From an uncultured Victivallales bacterium (GTDB lineage: Bacteria; Verrucomicrobiota; Lentisphaeria; Victivallales; UBA1829), in the NCBI GenBank assembly GCA_944391115.1, contig CALXSJ010000002.1:62001-126000 (forward strand): 64,000 bases of DNA. The letters are read 5' to 3'. Positions 3,111 through 12,385 of the stretch are shown here, one piece after another. Within the stretch, counting starts at the first letter, position 1, and the number at the start of each line of letters is the position of its first letter. The notes beneath the pieces are model-generated. The model did not search any database. It saw nothing but the letters and a program-made list of their open reading frames with translations, and was not told the DNA's origin. A program made the translations under genes and the position numbers.

Positions 3111-3398
3111 ATGAGCGAAAAAAAACAGGCTGTCATCACCTTCAAGGCGGAGGGGGAAATGCTTGCCGCACTGAACAGGATTCCGAACAAGTCGGAGTTC
3201 ATCCGCGCGGCCGTTCTGAACGCCCTGGACGAGACATGTCCCTTCTGCGGGGGGGCCGGATTCCTGAATGAAAAACAGCGCAGGCACTGGAAAACCTTTG
3301 CAAAGTTTCATACCCTGAAGCGGTGCGGGAAGTGCAATGCCCTTGAAATCGAGTGCATCGAGCATGAACACGGAAAGGAAAAGGAGTGCTGCCGATGA
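3111..3398 (+). CDS. small ribbon-helix-helix protein with Cys clusters, putative zinc-responsive repressor
   Basis: The 95-aa product starts with a CopG/MetJ-like ribbon-helix-helix segment: a beta strand (QAVITFK), then helices around residues 15-40 including the 'NKSEFIRAAVLNAL' helix. Metal-type cysteines follow: C43-x2-C46 (CPFCGGAG), C72-x2-C75 (CGKC), C82, H85, H87 and C93-C94. It overlaps znuA by an ATGA junction, so the two are translationally coupled. The tandem repeat in its promoter suits a repressor of this fold. Known zinc-uptake repressors are usually Zur (Fur family), so this would be a different solution. The regulatory role and zinc specificity are inferred from context. Confidence 0.65.
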   Translation: MSEKKQAVITFKAEGEMLAALNRIPNKSEFIRAAVLNALDETCPFCGGAGFLNEKQRRHWKTFAKFHTLKRCGKCNALEIECIEHEHGKEKECCR

Positions 3399-4312
3399 AA
3401 AATACGTTTTCCCTCTGTCTTCTTCTTTTTTCCGCCGTTTTCATTTCCTCCGCGGCGGAAATACGGAATGTCTGCTGCACAACCTTTCCGCTCTATCTGT
3501 TTACGCGGAACATCACGGAAGGCTGCCGGAATGTCAATACGGAGCTTGTCATTCCGCCCGGAACCGGATGTCCGCACGATTACGCCCTGACGCCGCGCGA
3601 CATGCGCAAACTCGGCGCGGAACACCTGATACTCGTGCGCAACGGGCTCGGCCTGGACGATTTCATTCTGGCGCCGCTCCGGAAAATGAATCCGGACGCG
3701 GTCGTGATTGACACGTCGCGCGGAATCGACACGCTCGCGCTTGATACTCCCTGCAGGCATGAGCACGGACACGGGCACAGGCACACGGCGCGGAATCCGC
3801 ATCTGTTCGCCAGTCCGTTTGAAGCGGTCCGGATTGTCGGCAACATCGCGGAGGGGCTTGCGGAGGCCGATCCGGCGAATGCCGCGCGTTACAGGTCGAA
3901 TGCCGCCGCCTATACCGCAAAACTCCGCAGGCTTTGCGAGGCGTTCACGGAAAACGCGCGCAGATATCAGTTTGAAAAGCGGAAGATCGTGACGCAGCAC
4001 GGCGTGTTTGATTATCTTGCGCGCAATTTGAATCTTCCGGTTTTCGCGACAATTACGGCCGAGCCCGAGTCCGGCATCACGGCTTCGGAAATGACGGAGC
4101 TTGCCGCAAAACTCAAGGGGAAAGGCATCGATGTCATCTATACGGAACCGCAGTATTCCCCGCGTGTGGCGAAGACTCTGGCAAGGGAGTGCGGAATTCC
4201 GCTCGCCAGTCTCGACCCGGTTGCGAACGGTCCCGCGGACGCCCCGATGGATTACTACGAATCGACGATGCGGAAAAATCTGGAAGTGCTTGGAAAGACC
4301 CTGAAAAAATGA
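3395..4312 (+). CDS. znuA: zinc ABC transporter, periplasmic solute-binding protein
   Basis: This 305-aa cluster-9 (ZnuA/TroA-type) binding protein captures Zn(II) (possibly Mn) in the periplasm and passes it to ZnuB. It has a signal peptide (residues 1-21). The expected metal ligands are visible as His61 (CPHDY), His136 (NPH), His202 (QHGVFDY) and an acidic residue near Asp274. A His-rich loop (residues 122-131, HEHGHGHRH) is typical of zinc rather than manganese binders. Its start overlaps the upstream regulator gene and its stop overlaps znuC by ATGA, so the operon is tightly coupled. Confidence 0.9.
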   Translation: MKNTFSLCLLLFSAVFISSAAEIRNVCCTTFPLYLFTRNITEGCRNVNTELVIPPGTGCPHDYALTPRDMRKLGAEHLILVRNGLGLDDFILAPLRKMNPDAVVIDTSRGIDTLALDTPCRHEHGHGHRHTARNPHLFASPFEAVRIVGNIAEGLAEADPANAARYRSNAAAYTAKLRRLCEAFTENARRYQFEKRKIVTQHGVFDYLARNLNLPVFATITAEPESGITASEMTELAAKLKGKGIDVIYTEPQYSPRVAKTLARECGIPLASLDPVANGPADAPMDYYESTMRKNLEVLGKTLKK

Positions 4313-5118
4313 AAGATGCTGAACAGAACTGCTGCTGTGCTGGAAGTCATGCGGCGATCCGCATCCGGAATCTGAATGTGAAAATCGGAGCGGTATCCAT
4401 TCTGGAGAATGTTTCCGCGGAGGTTCCGCGCGGCATGTGCACGGCGGTCGTCGGCCCGAACGGAGCGGGAAAGACCACGCTCACGAGAGCGATTCTCGAC
4501 GACATTCCCTACCGCGGAGAGATTGCATTCGGCGACTCGTCCGGCGGGTATTCCCGGAAAAAGCCGCGTTTCGGCTATGTGCCTCAGAAACTCAATTTCG
4601 ACCGTGACATGCCGCTGACCGTCACGGAGTTTCTGGCGGGAGGGCTGGTGCGGCGTCCTGTTTTCTTCGGCATATCGGGGAAATTCCGGAAGTTGTGCCT
4701 GGATTATCTGACCGAGGTTGAGTGCGGGCATCTTGCCGGACGCAGTCTCGGCGCGCTTTCCGGCGGCGAGCTGCAGCGCGTTCTGCTGGCGCAGGCGCTG
4801 ATGCAGAATCCGGAGATTCTGATTCTTGACGAACCGGCCGCCGGCGTGGATTTCAAGGGGGAACAGCTCTGCTGCGAGCTTCTTGAGAAATTCCGGCGGA
4901 AGCTCGGGTTCACGCAGCTGATGATCAGTCATGATCTGTCGATGGTCGCCGCGCATGCGGAACATGTGATCTGCATCAACCGGAGGGTCTACGCCGAGGG
5001 CGTGCCGTCGGAGGTGCTGACCTCCGACGCGCTTTCCGCAACGTTCGGCCTTCATATGGGAATGGTGAAATATGATAAACACGGAGTCGGCTGTAAAACA
5101 TGTGCGAAACAATCCTAG
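4309..5118 (+). CDS. znuC: zinc ABC transporter, ATP-binding protein
   Basis: This 269-aa ABC ATPase powers zinc import. It has Walker A GPNGAGKTT (residues 49-57), the signature LSGGE (150-154), Walker B LILDEP (about 171-176) and an H-loop His208. The start at 4309 overlaps the znuA stop and excludes an in-frame extension into znuA. It carries extra cysteines at both ends: CCC at residues 8-10 and C-x-x-C near the C-terminus (GCKTC). Most ZnuC proteins lack these, and their role is unknown. The 3' end overlaps znuB by 19 bases. Confidence 0.9.
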   Translation: MKDAEQNCCCAGSHAAIRIRNLNVKIGAVSILENVSAEVPRGMCTAVVGPNGAGKTTLTRAILDDIPYRGEIAFGDSSGGYSRKKPRFGYVPQKLNFDRDMPLTVTEFLAGGLVRRPVFFGISGKFRKLCLDYLTEVECGHLAGRSLGALSGGELQRVLLAQALMQNPEILILDEPAAGVDFKGEQLCCELLEKFRRKLGFTQLMISHDLSMVAAHAEHVICINRRVYAEGVPSEVLTSDALSATFGLHMGMVKYDKHGVGCKTCAKQS

Positions 5119-5966
5119 ATTTCTTCTGCTCCCTTGCCGGAGCGCTGCCGTTTGAATGCATGAAGCTGCGGTTCATGCAGGAGGCGTTTCTCGGCGTGCT
5201 CCTGACCGCGCCTCTGGCCGCCGCCGCCGGGATTCAGGTGGTGAACTTCCGCATGTCCTTTTTTTCGGACGCGATCGGCCACTCGGCGTTTGCCGGCGTG
5301 GCGCTCGGATTGATTTTCGGGATCAGCCCGGACTGGACCATGCCGCTTCTGGCTCTGGTGATCGGCATCGGGATCATGGCGATGAAACAGCGTTCCGCAC
5401 TCTCCTCGGACACTGTGATCGGTGTCTTCTTTTCCGCGGTCGTGGCATTCGGACTTGCGCTTGTCAGCCGCAATCCGAATGTTTCGCGGGACATGCAGAT
5501 GTTTCTCTACGGCGATATTCTAACCGTCACCCGCAGCGACCTCTTCTTTCTCTTTCTTCTGTTCTGCGTGTTTTTCGCCTTTCAGATTTTCGCCTACAAC
5601 CGCCTGAATGCGATTGGGCTGCATGAGCAGCTCGCGCGCACCCACCGGATTCACACCGCGTTTTACCAGTATGTCTATGTGGCGCTGCTCTCTCTTGTCG
5701 TGATCTTTTCGGTCAAGTCCGCCGGCGTGCTTCTTGTGACGGCGCTTCTGATCGTTCCGGCCGCCGCCGCGCGCAATTTTTCGAAAAGTTCCGGAATGAT
5801 GTTCTGGATTTCCATTGCAATCGGTGTATGTTCCGGCATAGCGGGGCTTCTGATTTCCGCCCAGCCGTGGGCGGAGACGGCGTCCGGCGCGACCATTGTG
5901 CTGTGTGCCTGCGCCGTTTTCTGCGTCAGTCTGCTGTCCGGAGCGCTGAAAGGAAAAAAATCTTAA
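5100..5966 (+). CDS. znuB: zinc ABC transporter, membrane permease
   Basis: This 288-aa integral membrane protein of the ABC-3 family forms the zinc channel with ZnuA and ZnuC. About eight hydrophobic segments are visible, and the early 'SFFSDAIGHSAFAGVALG' stretch is the conserved region of this family. It is the last transporter gene of the operon. The gene for the TPR/Sel1 lipoprotein starts 15 bases later and may be co-transcribed. Confidence 0.9.
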   Translation: MCETILDFFCSLAGALPFECMKLRFMQEAFLGVLLTAPLAAAAGIQVVNFRMSFFSDAIGHSAFAGVALGLIFGISPDWTMPLLALVIGIGIMAMKQRSALSSDTVIGVFFSAVVAFGLALVSRNPNVSRDMQMFLYGDILTVTRSDLFFLFLLFCVFFAFQIFAYNRLNAIGLHEQLARTHRIHTAFYQYVYVALLSLVVIFSVKSAGVLLVTALLIVPAAAARNFSKSSGMMFWISIAIGVCSGIAGLLISAQPWAETASGATIVLCACAVFCVSLLSGALKGKKS

Positions 5967-7516: not shown

Positions 7517-9328
7517 ATGTTCAGGATCACGACATTCAGCGATTACCGGGAATACTCTCCGGCGGGCCGGCGGAGGATTCTGGCACGCATCCGCGGGGAT
7601 TCCTTTGACGCGGTCCGCTTCCGGATTGACCGCGCCGTGACGGAGACCGCGTTTCACCGCTATGACGACTCTTTCGCCGATACCTTTTTTGAAGACGCCG
7701 CCGCGGAGGGGCTCAAGGCGATTCCCGCTCTTTTGTTTCATACCCCGCCCTGGGCGCGTGATGCGGAACCGTCGTTCAGCGATCCCGGAACATGGCGGAA
7801 TGTCCTCCTGTTTCTGGAACATGTCGTGACCCGTTACAGGAACCGTCCGGAACTGGCGTTTTTCCAGGTGATTTTCAAACCTTCCGCAATTCCGGATTCC
7901 GATCCGGCATTCCGGGAATACCTGATGCGCAGATATCCCTCCATGAAAGCTTTGAATCATGCGCTCAACACATGCTATTCCGCATTGGAAGACATTTCGC
8001 TGAAGGACTGCGGCATCTTCGGCATCCGGATGCAGATGGAGCGCCGGCTGTTCCGGCGCCGGGATTACGAACGGAAGCTGGCCGATCTGATGGAAACGGT
8101 CCGCGCCGTTTCTCCGCAGACGCTTTCCCATACGGTTTTCCTTTCGCACCGTCTCGCGCCTTCCGATCTGCTTTCGGCGCATGCGCTGCTTCAGGAGACT
8201 GCGGACCGGTGCGATGCGCCGTATCTGATTCACTGGAGGCCGCCCGCCGGAACCGCGGAGCCGGAACTGGAGCTTTGCGCCTGTGCGCACGGCGCGTCCG
8301 GTCTGGTTTTTCCCGGCCGCTGCAGAACTTCCGGACTGTTTCCGGCTGTTTCTCCCGCGCATCCGGATGCGGAACGGGCAATGACCGCGTTTCTGGAAAA
8401 ATACCGCGCTCTGTGCGCCGGACTTTCCGTTCCTGCGGAAATCGGAGTGTTCCGCAGCCGCCGCACCGGGTGGCTGGCCGGAATCCGCAAGGAGCCTGAC
8501 GAGGTTCACAAGCGTTCCTTGCACGCCTGGAGCAGAGCGCTGACAGCGGCATCCCTTCCTTTCCGCATTGTGGAGGAGGGCGCGGAATTTCCACGGAAAC
8601 TGAAACTGCTGGTGCTTCCGTCCGTCGCCGCTCTGGACGATGCGGATGCCGAACGTCTGCTTGCCTTTGCCTGGGAGGGCGGCACTCTGTTCTGCGAAGG
8701 CGGATGCGGTCACTACAGCGGACTCGGCGCCTGTCTGGATCCCGAACACAGGTGCTTTGCGGAGGCGACCGGCGTCATGGAGGGTCCGGAGTGTGTGAAA
8801 CCGGCGAATCCTCGTGTGAAATGCGGTTCCGGTGCGGAAACATTTTTCCTGAACGCCGGAGAAAGTCTCACCCCCTGGATTTCCGTTCCGAAATTCTCGG
8901 AAACGCTCATCCCGCTGGACGGGAAACGTGATCTGGTCTGCCGTGTTCCCTACGGGAAAGGAAAAATGATTCTCTGCGCACCGGTTTTCAGCGCATGCTG
9001 CCAGGAGAAGCGGAATGCCGGATTTGAGAAGTTGATACGGCGCGTTTGCTCCTCGGCAGGCGTTTATCCGCCGGTCCGGATTCTGAAACCTTCCGGAGGT
9101 GCGGCTCCGCTGCTGCAGCTTCTGGAAAATGCGGAGCACCGGATGCTGTTTCTGTTTTTCCCGCCGCAGACATCCGGATGCGAACTGGAATTTCCTGCGG
9201 GATTCTGGAGAAAACGGCTCCCCGTCGACCTGCTGCGCGGCGGAAATGTGCGGGTTGCACAGCATTCCGGAGTACAGAGAATGAAGCTGAAAGCATCTCC
9301 GGAAAGAGTTTCCGTGCTGTATGAATGA
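7517..9328 (+). CDS. GH42-like protein apparently lacking the catalytic glutamates
   Basis: The 603-aa product has no signal peptide. Residues 1-270 resemble the TIM barrel of GH42 beta-galactosidases: 'AFREYLMRRYPSMKALNHAL' parallels the family's FRxWLxxKYGTxxALNxxW block, and 'CACAHGASGLVFPG' parallels AxAHGADGVLYF. About residues 350-500 match the GATase-like second domain (LLVLPSVAALDD, then GGTLF). Where GH42 has the acid/base 'NE', this protein reads IFKPS (119-123). Where the nucleophile Glu is expected, it reads IHWRPPAG (about 238-245). It starts 8 bases after the lipoprotein gene. It is probably a non-hydrolytic relative or one with changed chemistry. Confidence 0.65.
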   Translation: MFRITTFSDYREYSPAGRRRILARIRGDSFDAVRFRIDRAVTETAFHRYDDSFADTFFEDAAAEGLKAIPALLFHTPPWARDAEPSFSDPGTWRNVLLFLEHVVTRYRNRPELAFFQVIFKPSAIPDSDPAFREYLMRRYPSMKALNHALNTCYSALEDISLKDCGIFGIRMQMERRLFRRRDYERKLADLMETVRAVSPQTLSHTVFLSHRLAPSDLLSAHALLQETADRCDAPYLIHWRPPAGTAEPELELCACAHGASGLVFPGRCRTSGLFPAVSPAHPDAERAMTAFLEKYRALCAGLSVPAEIGVFRSRRTGWLAGIRKEPDEVHKRSLHAWSRALTAASLPFRIVEEGAEFPRKLKLLVLPSVAALDDADAERLLAFAWEGGTLFCEGGCGHYSGLGACLDPEHRCFAEATGVMEGPECVKPANPRVKCGSGAETFFLNAGESLTPWISVPKFSETLIPLDGKRDLVCRVPYGKGKMILCAPVFSACCQEKRNAGFEKLIRRVCSSAGVYPPVRILKPSGGAAPLLQLLENAEHRMLFLFFPPQTSGCELEFPAGFWRKRLPVDLLRGGNVRVAQHSGVQRMKLKASPERVSVLYE

Positions 9329-9352: not shown

Positions 9353-12300
9353 TCAGGGTTTCGTCTGTTTTGTCTCTTGCGTTTTCTGCCGTTCGCGCAG
9401 ACGCCAGAACTCTTCCGGCGACTGGGTGGTCGCGTGTTCCATGACCGATGACTCGTTGTCCGTCAGCACGCGCAGGAACGGCATCTGCCGGAGCGGCTCG
9501 ATGTCCGTCAGATTTTTCGGAATGTTCAGATATTCGAGAGGTTCGATCAGATAAACCGGCGAGATGTCCTTGAGTTTCGTGCAGTTGCCGAGATCAAGCA
9601 TCAGCAGCGGCATGTCCCGCAGCAGCCCGATGTCGGAAACTTTTGTGGAATCGATCAGCAGCATTTCCAGGGAGAGACCGCGGAGCGGCTCGATGTCCGT
9701 CAGGGGATTTTTTCCGACGTCCAGCATTTTCAGCGTTTCCATGCCGAACAGCGGCTGAAGGGAAGAGATGCCGTTGCCGCGCAGATGCAGTTTTTCCACC
9801 GTGGCGGAACGGAGCGCGTCGATCGCCGTGATCCGGTTGTTCGAGGCATTCAGGGAGATCAGGAGCATGCCGCGCAGCGGAGTGAGATCCTGAATCCGGT
9901 TGTTCGCGCAGTTCAGACTGGTCAGCATCATGCCGCGCAACGGGGTCAGATCGGCGATTTCATTGTTGTGGCAGCTCAGCACTTCCAGCGGCATTTTTTC
10001 AATTCCCCTGAGGGAGGTCAGTTTGTTGTTCGAACAGTCCAGATAGACCAGGGGAAGCGAGGCGATCGGTTCCAGCGAGCGCAGTCCGAAGCCGGAGATG
10101 TCCAGACGTTTCATGTTTTTCGTACGGGCGATCAGCGACATCAGCGTGTCAGCGGCATCCTTCGGAAGTTCATGATGAGGCAGCTGAAGAATCCGGGTGA
10201 CGATATTGGTGTTCGGATTCAGTTCAAAAACCTCGCGCATCAGCTGAAGCGCCTGCGCATAATCGCCGCTTCGCCAGAGGAGAGCCGCGTCCAGTTCCAG
10301 AATCCGGTCGCGGTAGCGGAATTTCGTAAACTGTGCGGCGATCCGTTTTTTGATTTCCACCAGCGCATTGGTTCTCTGCCGGGAATCGGAGAGTTTCGAG
10401 GCCGCGGTCATATAGGCTTTGACCAGCGCCATTTCTGCGAGCTGTGTTCTGGCGTAACTGTCCGCGATCTGAAGATATTTTCCGACGGCGGCCTCGGCAA
10501 GGCCCGCCTCCAGCAGCGTGTCTCCGGCGATCAGCGGAGTTGTTTTTTCCGGAATTGCCAGACGGTAGACGGACAGCGAACGGATCACGGTTCCGTTTGC
10601 GAAGGCCCGGATTCCCACTCTGGAGAGTCCTTCTCCGGTCGGGGGAAAATAATCGACGGCATTGACGGAATGCGTTTTTCCGATTGTCAGGGACAGCTGA
10701 TCGTCCCGCCGGATCGCCGTGATTGTGATTTCCTGTCCCGGCGTGAGTTTCGTCTCGCCGGAGCTGACATATTCCACGGAATACGGATCGTTGACCTTTG
10801 CAATCACATCCTTTGTTCCGCCGAATCCGCTGACAATGAATGTGTATCCGTGCGGAATCTGCCACCATTCCCTGCGGGGGGAAATGTGGCTGTTGACGGC
10901 AATTTCCAGCGCTTCCAGCACCTGCGGAGCGGATACCGTGAGCACGACTTTGACATTGCCGTGCAGCTTGGCGTTCAGCCAGAGCCAGGTGCCTTTTGAG
11001 GTTTCCAGTCCGGCGGGTGTGAGCTGCCACTCCGGAGCCGGTTTGTTCAGATTGGCGTCCATGAAGGAAAGGCCGTCCAGCGTTGCATCCGGTCCGGTGA
11101 ACTTCTGCTGGTAAACGGGAATCCAGTCGCTCTGCCACCGGGAAATTTCAAAGTATGCGTAAAGGGAAAGGAAGAGAGCCAGGCACAGTGTCGTTGCAAT
11201 GGAGGCGACAAGAAGGCGGTGACGTTTGACCAGAAGCAGGAATTTCCGGATCATGCCGGCTTTTTCCGCCTTGGTGTCGAATCCGTCGATATAGGCGATG
11301 ACTTCGTCGCGCAATTCCTTGACCGTGGCGTAGCGGTTGGCCGGATTGACGCTCATTGCCTTCAGGATCACCGCTTCGATGCCGTGCGGGATTTCCCGTC
11401 CCGGCACCCGTTCGCTCGGCTTGATGATGTTTCCGTAGATGGTGTCGTGAAGCATGCTTTTCAGATCCCCCGGTTCGATCGGATCCTTGTAGGTCACCAT
11501 GGCGTAGAGAATCGCGCCGAGCGCGTAAACGTCGGTGCGTACGTCGCTTTTGCTGTTTTTTCCGGCGGCCTGTTCGGGAGCCATGTAGCCGGGGGTGCCG
11601 TTCATGACGCCGTCGAGCGTCAGCTTGAAATCGGTGTAGCCCTTTTCGCGGGAGGCGCGTCTGGAGCCGGAGCCGCTCAGCGGATTCTGTCTGGCGGAGA
11701 CGGAGCGCGCCAGCCCCCAGTCGAGGATCAGCACTTCTCCGAAATCTCCGATCTGCACGTTTTCCGGTTTGAGATCCAGATGGATGATCCCTTTGGAATG
11801 GGCGAATGCCGCGCCGTTGCAGATCCGGAGATAGAGACGCATCAGCGCTTCAAAGGAGTAGTTTTTCAGATAGGCCGGATTCCCTTCGTCCATTTTTTTC
11901 AGCAGAGAGGCGAGCGATTCGCCGCTCAGGAGCTTCATCGTGAAGTAAGGCGATCCGGAGGAGTCGATTCCGATGTCGTGGACGGGAACGATGTTCGGAT
12001 GTTCCAGACTGGCCGTGACGCGCGCCTCCTGAATGAAGCGGAGAATTTCCGCGCGGGAACGGTGCTCGATATCCGGCATCAGGGCCATTGCCACATCGCG
12101 CATCGTGTCGTTGTCGCGGACCTGGAGCACCATTTTCATCCCGCCGCGTCCGATGCTCCTGCGGAATTTATACTTGTCCGGCGGTTTGACGGAAAGTTTC
12201 GCGGTTACAAAGTCGTCGATGTCCAGCGATTTCGGATCGAGTTTCGCCGTCGCCTCCATATCGGACTTGCGCATCCGCTCCCGCGCCTTGATCTCGTGAA

Positions 12301-12385
12301 TTTCATTCTGCACATTGTCAATCGCCTGGGATCCGGCGGTTTCGGTCACGGGTGGACGGGAGTCGATTTCGTTTCTGTCTGTCAT
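9353..12385 (-). CDS. membrane Ser/Thr protein kinase with leucine-rich repeats
   Basis: The 1010-aa protein has a kinase domain at about residues 72-370: glycine loop GRGGMKMV (79-86), catalytic HLDLKPEN (202-209), DWG in place of DFG (222-224) and APE (269-271). The usual VAIK lysine position reads V98-A-M-A101. A lysine (K84) sits inside the glycine loop instead, at the place used by WNK kinases. A membrane helix at about 390-413 is followed by a beta-rich external region (about 430-600), helical repeats, and leucine-rich repeats of the LxxLxLxxNxI type at about 740-960. The ribosome site AGGTGA precedes the ATG, 7 bases after the radical SAM gene. An N-terminal cytosolic kinase and an external LRR sensor are inferred. 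Confidence 0.85.
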   Translation of the reverse strand: MTDRNEIDSRPPVTETAGSQAIDNVQNEIHEIKARERMRKSDMEATAKLDPKSLDIDDFVTAKLSVKPPDKYKFRRSIGRGGMKMVLQVRDNDTMRDVAMALMPDIEHRSRAEILRFIQEARVTASLEHPNIVPVHDIGIDSSGSPYFTMKLLSGESLASLLKKMDEGNPAYLKNYSFEALMRLYLRICNGAAFAHSKGIIHLDLKPENVQIGDFGEVLILDWGLARSVSARQNPLSGSGSRRASREKGYTDFKLTLDGVMNGTPGYMAPEQAAGKNSKSDVRTDVYALGAILYAMVTYKDPIEPGDLKSMLHDTIYGNIIKPSERVPGREIPHGIEAVILKAMSVNPANRYATVKELRDEVIAYIDGFDTKAEKAGMIRKFLLLVKRHRLLVASIATTLCLALFLSLYAYFEISRWQSDWIPVYQQKFTGPDATLDGLSFMDANLNKPAPEWQLTPAGLETSKGTWLWLNAKLHGNVKVVLTVSAPQVLEALEIAVNSHISPRREWWQIPHGYTFIVSGFGGTKDVIAKVNDPYSVEYVSSGETKLTPGQEITITAIRRDDQLSLTIGKTHSVNAVDYFPPTGEGLSRVGIRAFANGTVIRSLSVYRLAIPEKTTPLIAGDTLLEAGLAEAAVGKYLQIADSYARTQLAEMALVKAYMTAASKLSDSRQRTNALVEIKKRIAAQFTKFRYRDRILELDAALLWRSGDYAQALQLMREVFELNPNTNIVTRILQLPHHELPKDAADTLMSLIARTKNMKRLDISGFGLRSLEPIASLPLVYLDCSNNKLTSLRGIEKMPLEVLSCHNNEIADLTPLRGMMLTSLNCANNRIQDLTPLRGMLLISLNASNNRITAIDALRSATVEKLHLRGNGISSLQPLFGMETLKMLDVGKNPLTDIEPLRGLSLEMLLIDSTKVSDIGLLRDMPLLMLDLGNCTKLKDISPVYLIEPLEYLNIPKNLTDIEPLRQMPFLRVLTDNESSVMEHATTQSPEEFWRLRERQKTQETKQTKP

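Follow-up and report, generated by a model that had tools for sequence, protein, structure and literature searches.

A PknB-like membrane kinase from an uncultured Victivallales bacterium and its family carry a WNK-type placement of the putative catalytic lysine

According to Kannan et al. (2007), the WNK kinases are the only functional ePK family without K72, the lysine of strand beta3 (PMC1821047). In WNK1 catalysis requires Lys233 instead, which contacts ATP like PKA Lys72, and a charge shift was noted in the same work for CAK-chloro, a different branch (PMC1821047). The CAK-chloro kinases form a choline-kinase-like ELK family with Arg55, Met72, Phe91 and Gln186 and are not of the Ser/Thr ePK type. 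For bacteria, a 2025 review of pseudokinases describes arginine-based solutions and treats WNK as a eukaryotic case; the words Verrucomicrobi-, Planctomyc- and Lentisphaer- are absent from its text (PMC12599244). In the openly accessible literature we found no published description of bacterial WNK-like kinases, and such an absence is not proof. Among the described bacterial systems the closest are the mycobacterial PknB or PASTA kinases, which carry the VAIK lysine, a serine at the loop position, HRD, DFG and PASTA repeats, and the chlamydial PknD, which comes from the same superphylum as the locus analyzed here.

The locus lies in a 64,000-nt window of an uncultured Victivallales bacterium (assembly GCA_944391115.1, contig CALXSJ010000002.1, positions 62,001 to 126,000 of the forward strand), and all coordinates below refer to this window, i.e. 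to the whole stretch of DNA that was analyzed. The gene comprises the following features:

9353..12385, minus strand: whole gene including the stop codon, ORF from ATG, membrane kinase of 1010 aa carrying the lysine swap
11324..12172, minus strand: kinase domain, residues 72-354 (Pfam PF00069, E 7.7e-31)
12128..12151, minus strand: glycine loop GRGGMKMV, residues 79-86 (sequence and alignment)
12134..12136, minus strand: Lys84, equal to WNK1 Lys233 and to the PKA Gly55 position (alignment; invariant in the swap family)
12083..12085, minus strand: Ala101 at the VAIK lysine position, equal to PKA Lys72 and WNK1 Cys250 (alignment)
12026..12028, minus strand: Glu120, the alphaC glutamate (invariant in the swap family)
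11759..11782, minus strand: catalytic loop HLDLKPEN, residues 202-209, with D204 as putative base, N209 as putative metal ligand and Leu203 in place of the HRD arginine
11714..11722, minus strand: DWG, residues 222-224, Asp222 putatively metal-binding (motif and family conservation)
11159..11215, minus strand: predicted transmembrane helix, residues 391-409, following the basic stretch KFLLLVKRHR (positive-inside rule; hydropathy)
10559..11125, minus strand: ectodomain part resembling a beta-sandwich, residues 421-609, low to intermediate confidence (AF2 strands, pLDDT ~27-72)
10127..10534, minus strand: helical hairpin (TPR-like) part, residues 618-753 (AF2 helices, pLDDT ~80-93)
9461..10114, minus strand: internalin-like LRRs, residues ~758-975 (Pfam LRR_4; PDB matches)

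The PF00069 match reached 107.9 bits against a cut-off of 31.7 and covered profile positions 1-254 of 263; in the ORF translation the beta3 motif reads 98-VAMA-101 and APE occupies residues 269-271. The relatives of this locus that bear a name are uncultured Victivallales or Lentisphaeria, and same-genus orthologs of the kinase are 93, 88 and 81% identical. Against three close orthologs the kinase domain gave dN/dS values of 0.04-0.09. In one same-genus ortholog (L044/L015) an in-frame TAG trims the C-terminal tail downstream of the LRRs.

In the alignment with PknB and with the human WNK1 domain (identical to PDB 5w7t) Lys84 fell on WNK1 K233, Glu120 on WNK1 E268 and Ala101 on both WNK1 C250 and the VAIK lysine of PknB. 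An initial annotation of the locus, made from the sequence alone, had placed Lys84 at the site of the WNK catalytic lysine and Ala101 at the VAIK position, and the alignment agrees with it in both respects. It had furthermore described all other catalytic motifs as present except for the change of DFG to DWG. The motifs it listed are indeed there, but it overlooked that HRD is altered as well: the arginine is replaced by Leu203, resulting in HLD and hence a non-RD kinase. The DWG motif was discarded as part of the oddity because it is the usual form among the canonical relatives.

An AF2 model of residues 61-375, computed with 14 input sequences, reached a pLDDT of 83 and a pTM of 0.83. Its best match in the PDB was PknB 5u94 (Z 34.0, rmsd 1.6 A over 259 residues; Foldseek E 1.4e-22), so that the model predicts a kinase fold with confidence, closest to active PknB. 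Besides the fold, the protein shares with PknB 30% identity over 302 aa, the order of kinase, transmembrane helix and ectodomain and an apparently intracellular N-terminal kinase, but it differs in the swapped lysine, in HLD and DWG and in an ectodomain built of LRRs. Chlamydial PknD (NF009651/PRK13184) was the best NCBIfam match, with E 1.3e-70 over residues 71-375; the score of 238.5 bits, however, stays far below the cut-off of 839 and the kinase part alone matches, so that the protein is not a member of that family. With the WNK kinases it has in common the GxGxxK loop lysine, a small residue at the VAIK position, the alphaC glutamate and the catalytic Asp, Asn and Asp. The WNK kinases nevertheless belong to another kinase branch, with HRD instead of HLD and DLG instead of DWG, and the residues of their chloride site are not kept here. 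Furthermore, the Victivallales kinase is membrane-anchored, lacks the WNK regulatory parts and appears to carry a lysine feature which is not homologous to theirs.

Within its own genome the kinase is the only one of 13 Pkinase matches with the swap. All same-order orthologs covering the site read GG[MS]K ... VA[ML]A together with HLD, in one case HFD. Beyond the orthologs we classified 40 loci from relatives and 40 from the rest of the phylum, two of the latter without a gene. For 120 domains both columns were readable: 79 carried Lys84 and no lysine at 101, none carried both lysines, 40 had Lys101 without Lys84 and one had neither. Residue 101 of the 79 Lys84 kinases was Ala in 78 and Thr in one (L120, from G264). 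After removal of rows with more than 95% identity the counts were 78/0 and 1/40, corresponding to a Fisher p of 5e-31 if shared descent is ignored. Since the swap group is defined by Lys84, the telling part of this comparison is the state of residue 101 together with the catalytic residues. The occurrence of the swap in every site-covering ortholog and in paralogs across the phylum puts it beyond chance. One degenerate relative in the same group, L050 (G039:C351), keeps the VAIK lysine but has KKDNS in the loop, NLN in place of HRD and EWG in place of DFG, and is likely a real pseudokinase.

In a genome-wide scan, for which no loci were preselected, the codon pattern G-G-x-K-x6-D-x4-R-x-[VI]-A-x-A matched in 70 of the 274 genomes analyzed from the phylum, at about 195 places in sum; of the matches listed, three or more do not look like kinases. 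The reversed control gave one match. With the same pattern, lysine at both places was found in none of the 274 genomes. The canonical pattern, Gly84 and Lys101, matched 65 of the 89 genomes of the class, and the five matches to a pattern without either lysine (Gly84/Ala101) were on inspection not kinase-like. All of these counts are lower bounds, as GG, D91 and R96 are demanded. They indicate that exactly one lysine is always there, neither both nor none. The placement which had been presented as the trait of a single protein is WNK-like as described, but belongs to a large conserved family, and a wider occurrence in PVC genomes, for which the initial annotation had proposed a survey, is supported. 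Three Lentisphaera-like genomes of the same class (G228, G244 and G264, family f11) had between 24 and 39 swap matches each by pattern, the three counts being, from high to low, 39, 38 and 24, and with roughly 100 kinase candidates each on first look they display a remarkable expansion of swap kinases.

Outside the phylum, a search of viral contigs with the swap profile gave no match, and the matches listed by a plasmid tblastn were general bacterial kinases. Several IMG/VR contigs encode kinases with divergent loops: nine related ones (L172-L175 and L177-L181) carry Gln in the loop (GEGGMQ[KE]VYLA) and keep the VAIK lysine, L186 has a GGQKIV loop with lysine at both places, and L189 has a GSEKLV loop, Asn at the VAIK position and no obvious alphaC glutamate. 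Other phyla may harbor a further type of bacterial kinase, whose loop resembles GEGGKKxVYLA and whose beta3 reads VAFALI. Searching with this consensus retrieved canonical kinases only among the 20 loci read from the phylum, nothing in the viral contigs and no convincing plasmid match. If this holds true, the trait would be wider and present in at least two bacterial groups.

In the set of 78 non-redundant swap kinases Lys84 is encoded by AAA in 43 and by AAG in 35, and residue 101 is Ala in 77, distributed over the four GCN codons as 26/17/17/17. E120, D204, N209, D222, G81 and G224 are invariant throughout the family. A full turnover of codons at constant residues 84 and 101, along with the invariance of E120, D204, N209 and D222, argues for an active enzyme. 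Columns 84, 101 and 203 discriminate most strongly between swap and canonical kinases, the last being the position of the HRD arginine. Three kinases from other families of the class (L125, L133 and L137) combine the canonical VAIK lysine with HLD and are possible living intermediates from before the swap. Two swap kinases of the same phylum (L131 and L143, family f70) keep HRD and read GGEK in the loop and VALA at beta3; they sit on a long branch and may represent an early or a separate branch. As canonical HLD kinases and HRD swap kinases both exist, HLD and the lysine swap are linked but separable.

In a tree computed without the trait columns the swap rows were nested among the canonical DWG-type kinases of the phylum, and the quick tree required the trait to change three times. 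When all 60 swap rows were kept in one clade, the tree scored 23 lnL above the free search (p-AU 0.859). A single origin of the swap inside the PknB-like lineage of Verrucomicrobiota/Lentisphaerota is favored by this comparison, not proved. With an apparent single origin the covariation of both columns reflects one event which was well kept and not many independent ones.

The likeness to WNK raises the question of descent. Gain of a true WNK gene from a eukaryote would account for the same lysine placement and for the similar GRGG and GRGS loops. This is hardly credible: by blastp the kinase scored 135 bits with PknB and 79 bits with WNK1, a profile search of the PDB returned PknB first and no WNK among its best 60 sequences, HRD and DLG of the WNK kinases differ, and the swap kinases nest among canonical relatives of their own phylum. 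Eukaryotic transfer was rejected on account of the closer relation to PknB, and the resemblance to WNK is best read as convergence; bacteria apparently evolved the WNK-type rearrangement on their own. Chloride sensing after the model of WNK, which the initial annotation had brought up, fares little better. In WNK1 the move of the lysine makes room for chloride (PMC5346417), and the emptied space at beta3 might likewise hold an inhibitory chloride ion here. Yet L369 of WNK1 corresponds to W223 (Trp in 97% of the family), F283 to V135 and L299 to F148, leaving L371 as the only one of four pocket residues that is matched (L225), and a WNK4 mutant at the equivalent of L369 loses chloride control (PMC5346417). 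With a tryptophan at the place of the chloride-site leucine the idea is unsupported, and we regard it as very improbable.

Greater weight is due to the reading as a pseudokinase, in which the change of the lysine means lost catalysis and the domain, perhaps still binding ATP loosely, acts as a scaffold or in allosteric signaling. It follows the usual rule by which a kinase that has lost the beta3 lysine is taken for a pseudokinase (PMC12599244). The HRD arginine is missing too, and catalysis by the swap kinases is predicted from their sequences. HLD is unusual for active kinases, while active non-RD kinases are known. Against a pseudokinase speaks that catalytic base, metal ligands, alphaC glutamate and glycine residues are invariant, unlike in the decaying L050, that a compensating lysine was never absent, and that families of 24-39 copies per genome have been retained; lost catalysis is therefore unlikely. 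Alternatively, the kinase could be active with Lys84 serving as a signature for substrate, regulation or a different nucleotide, while the role of the VAIK lysine falls to a different basic group. Arginines of beta2 or the catalytic loop have been proposed to do so in DLHK and ActPs2 (PMC12599244), and the geometry of Lys84 toward ATP is taken from the alignment. However, Lys84 occupies the position of WNK1 K233, a residue that catalysis requires (PMC1821047), its exchange with the VAIK lysine is strict, and no other basic residue has become newly invariant near the site in the swap family (A1 alignment), which makes such a replacement quite improbable. By analogy, the swap kinase is most likely active, with Lys84 in the role that Lys233 has in WNK1, and for a large conserved family an active WNK-like ATP site is much likelier than a chance pair of substitutions.

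As for the architecture, the membrane helix and the external leucine-rich repeats of the initial annotation were recovered as the helix at residues 391-409 and the LRRs at ~758-975, the latter matching internalins and the Chlorobium Roco LRR in the PDB structure search (Z ~23; AF2 model of residues 412-1010). The layout, as distinct from the ancestry, would be that of a receptor kinase, with a cytoplasmic kinase, a single membrane helix and external repeats. The likeness to receptor kinases proposed along with it holds for the 1010-aa protein but not in general, since in many swap kinases the chain stops just past the helix and there is no ectodomain. The constant module consists of swap kinase and membrane helix, with one TM at that spot in nearly all swap kinases, and what follows downstream varies: LRR ectodomains occur in the present kinase and related families, and ectodomains without a Pfam match in L034, L117, L141 and L154. 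Loci of family f4 (e.g. L102, L107, L110 and L114) encode tail-anchored proteins of ~400-450 aa which end soon after the helix. The neighboring radical SAM, SpoU methylase, TPR and GH-like genes are syntenic in the genus; no clue to function or signal was seen in these neighbors, and an Rfam search for an RNA element gave no match. Adjoining the kinase gene, positions 7517-9328 (plus strand) encode a 603 aa GH42-like protein with a weak trimerization-domain match only. This gene has the same place in L044. The flanks of L045 contain no match to it, and there the kinase lies directly beside the TPR gene. Farther away, positions 3386-5966 (plus strand) hold a zinc-uptake-like ABC operon of ZnuA-type binding protein, ATPase and ABC-3 permease.

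With a probability of roughly 0.77 we read the locus as encoding a membrane-anchored, PknB-descended Ser/Thr kinase whose ATP-anchoring lysine has moved to Lys84, giving a WNK-like site of independent origin. In the proposed mechanism the ATP-anchoring lysine would have shifted out of beta3 (VAIK) into the glycine loop, with Ala left at beta3. Lys84 would reach from beta2 down to the alpha and beta phosphates of ATP, held by Glu120 of alphaC, while Asp204 would serve as base in catalysis and the metal would be bound by Asn209 and Asp222. As the HRD arginine is gone, a phosphate on the activation loop probably does not exert control in the manner of RD kinases, and by extension from what is established for non-RD kinases, activation should not need the phosphate-arginine clamp usual in RD kinases. 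The ectodomain with its beta-sandwich, helical and LRR parts may sense a cue at the cell surface or in the periplasm and presumably promotes dimerization. The swap itself would have arisen once in the PknB-like lineage of Verrucomicrobiota/Lentisphaerota and then been kept and multiplied.

The family of PknB-type kinases with WNK-type lysine placement is apparently undescribed. It is probable that an active family of receptor-like and tail-anchored bacterial kinases has independently evolved the WNK swap along with loss of the HRD arginine, that the move is repeatable and untied to chloride, and that such kinases make up a large share of the Lentisphaera-like kinome (by pattern as many as 39 copies). 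The family shows how two lysines can trade places without surviving intermediates, and as a conserved bacterial case it offers an independent test of whether the move of the lysine always goes along with chloride sensing. In bacteria, kinases are still classed as pseudokinases when they lack the beta3 lysine (PMC12599244), and the pseudokinase counts for this phylum would need correcting.
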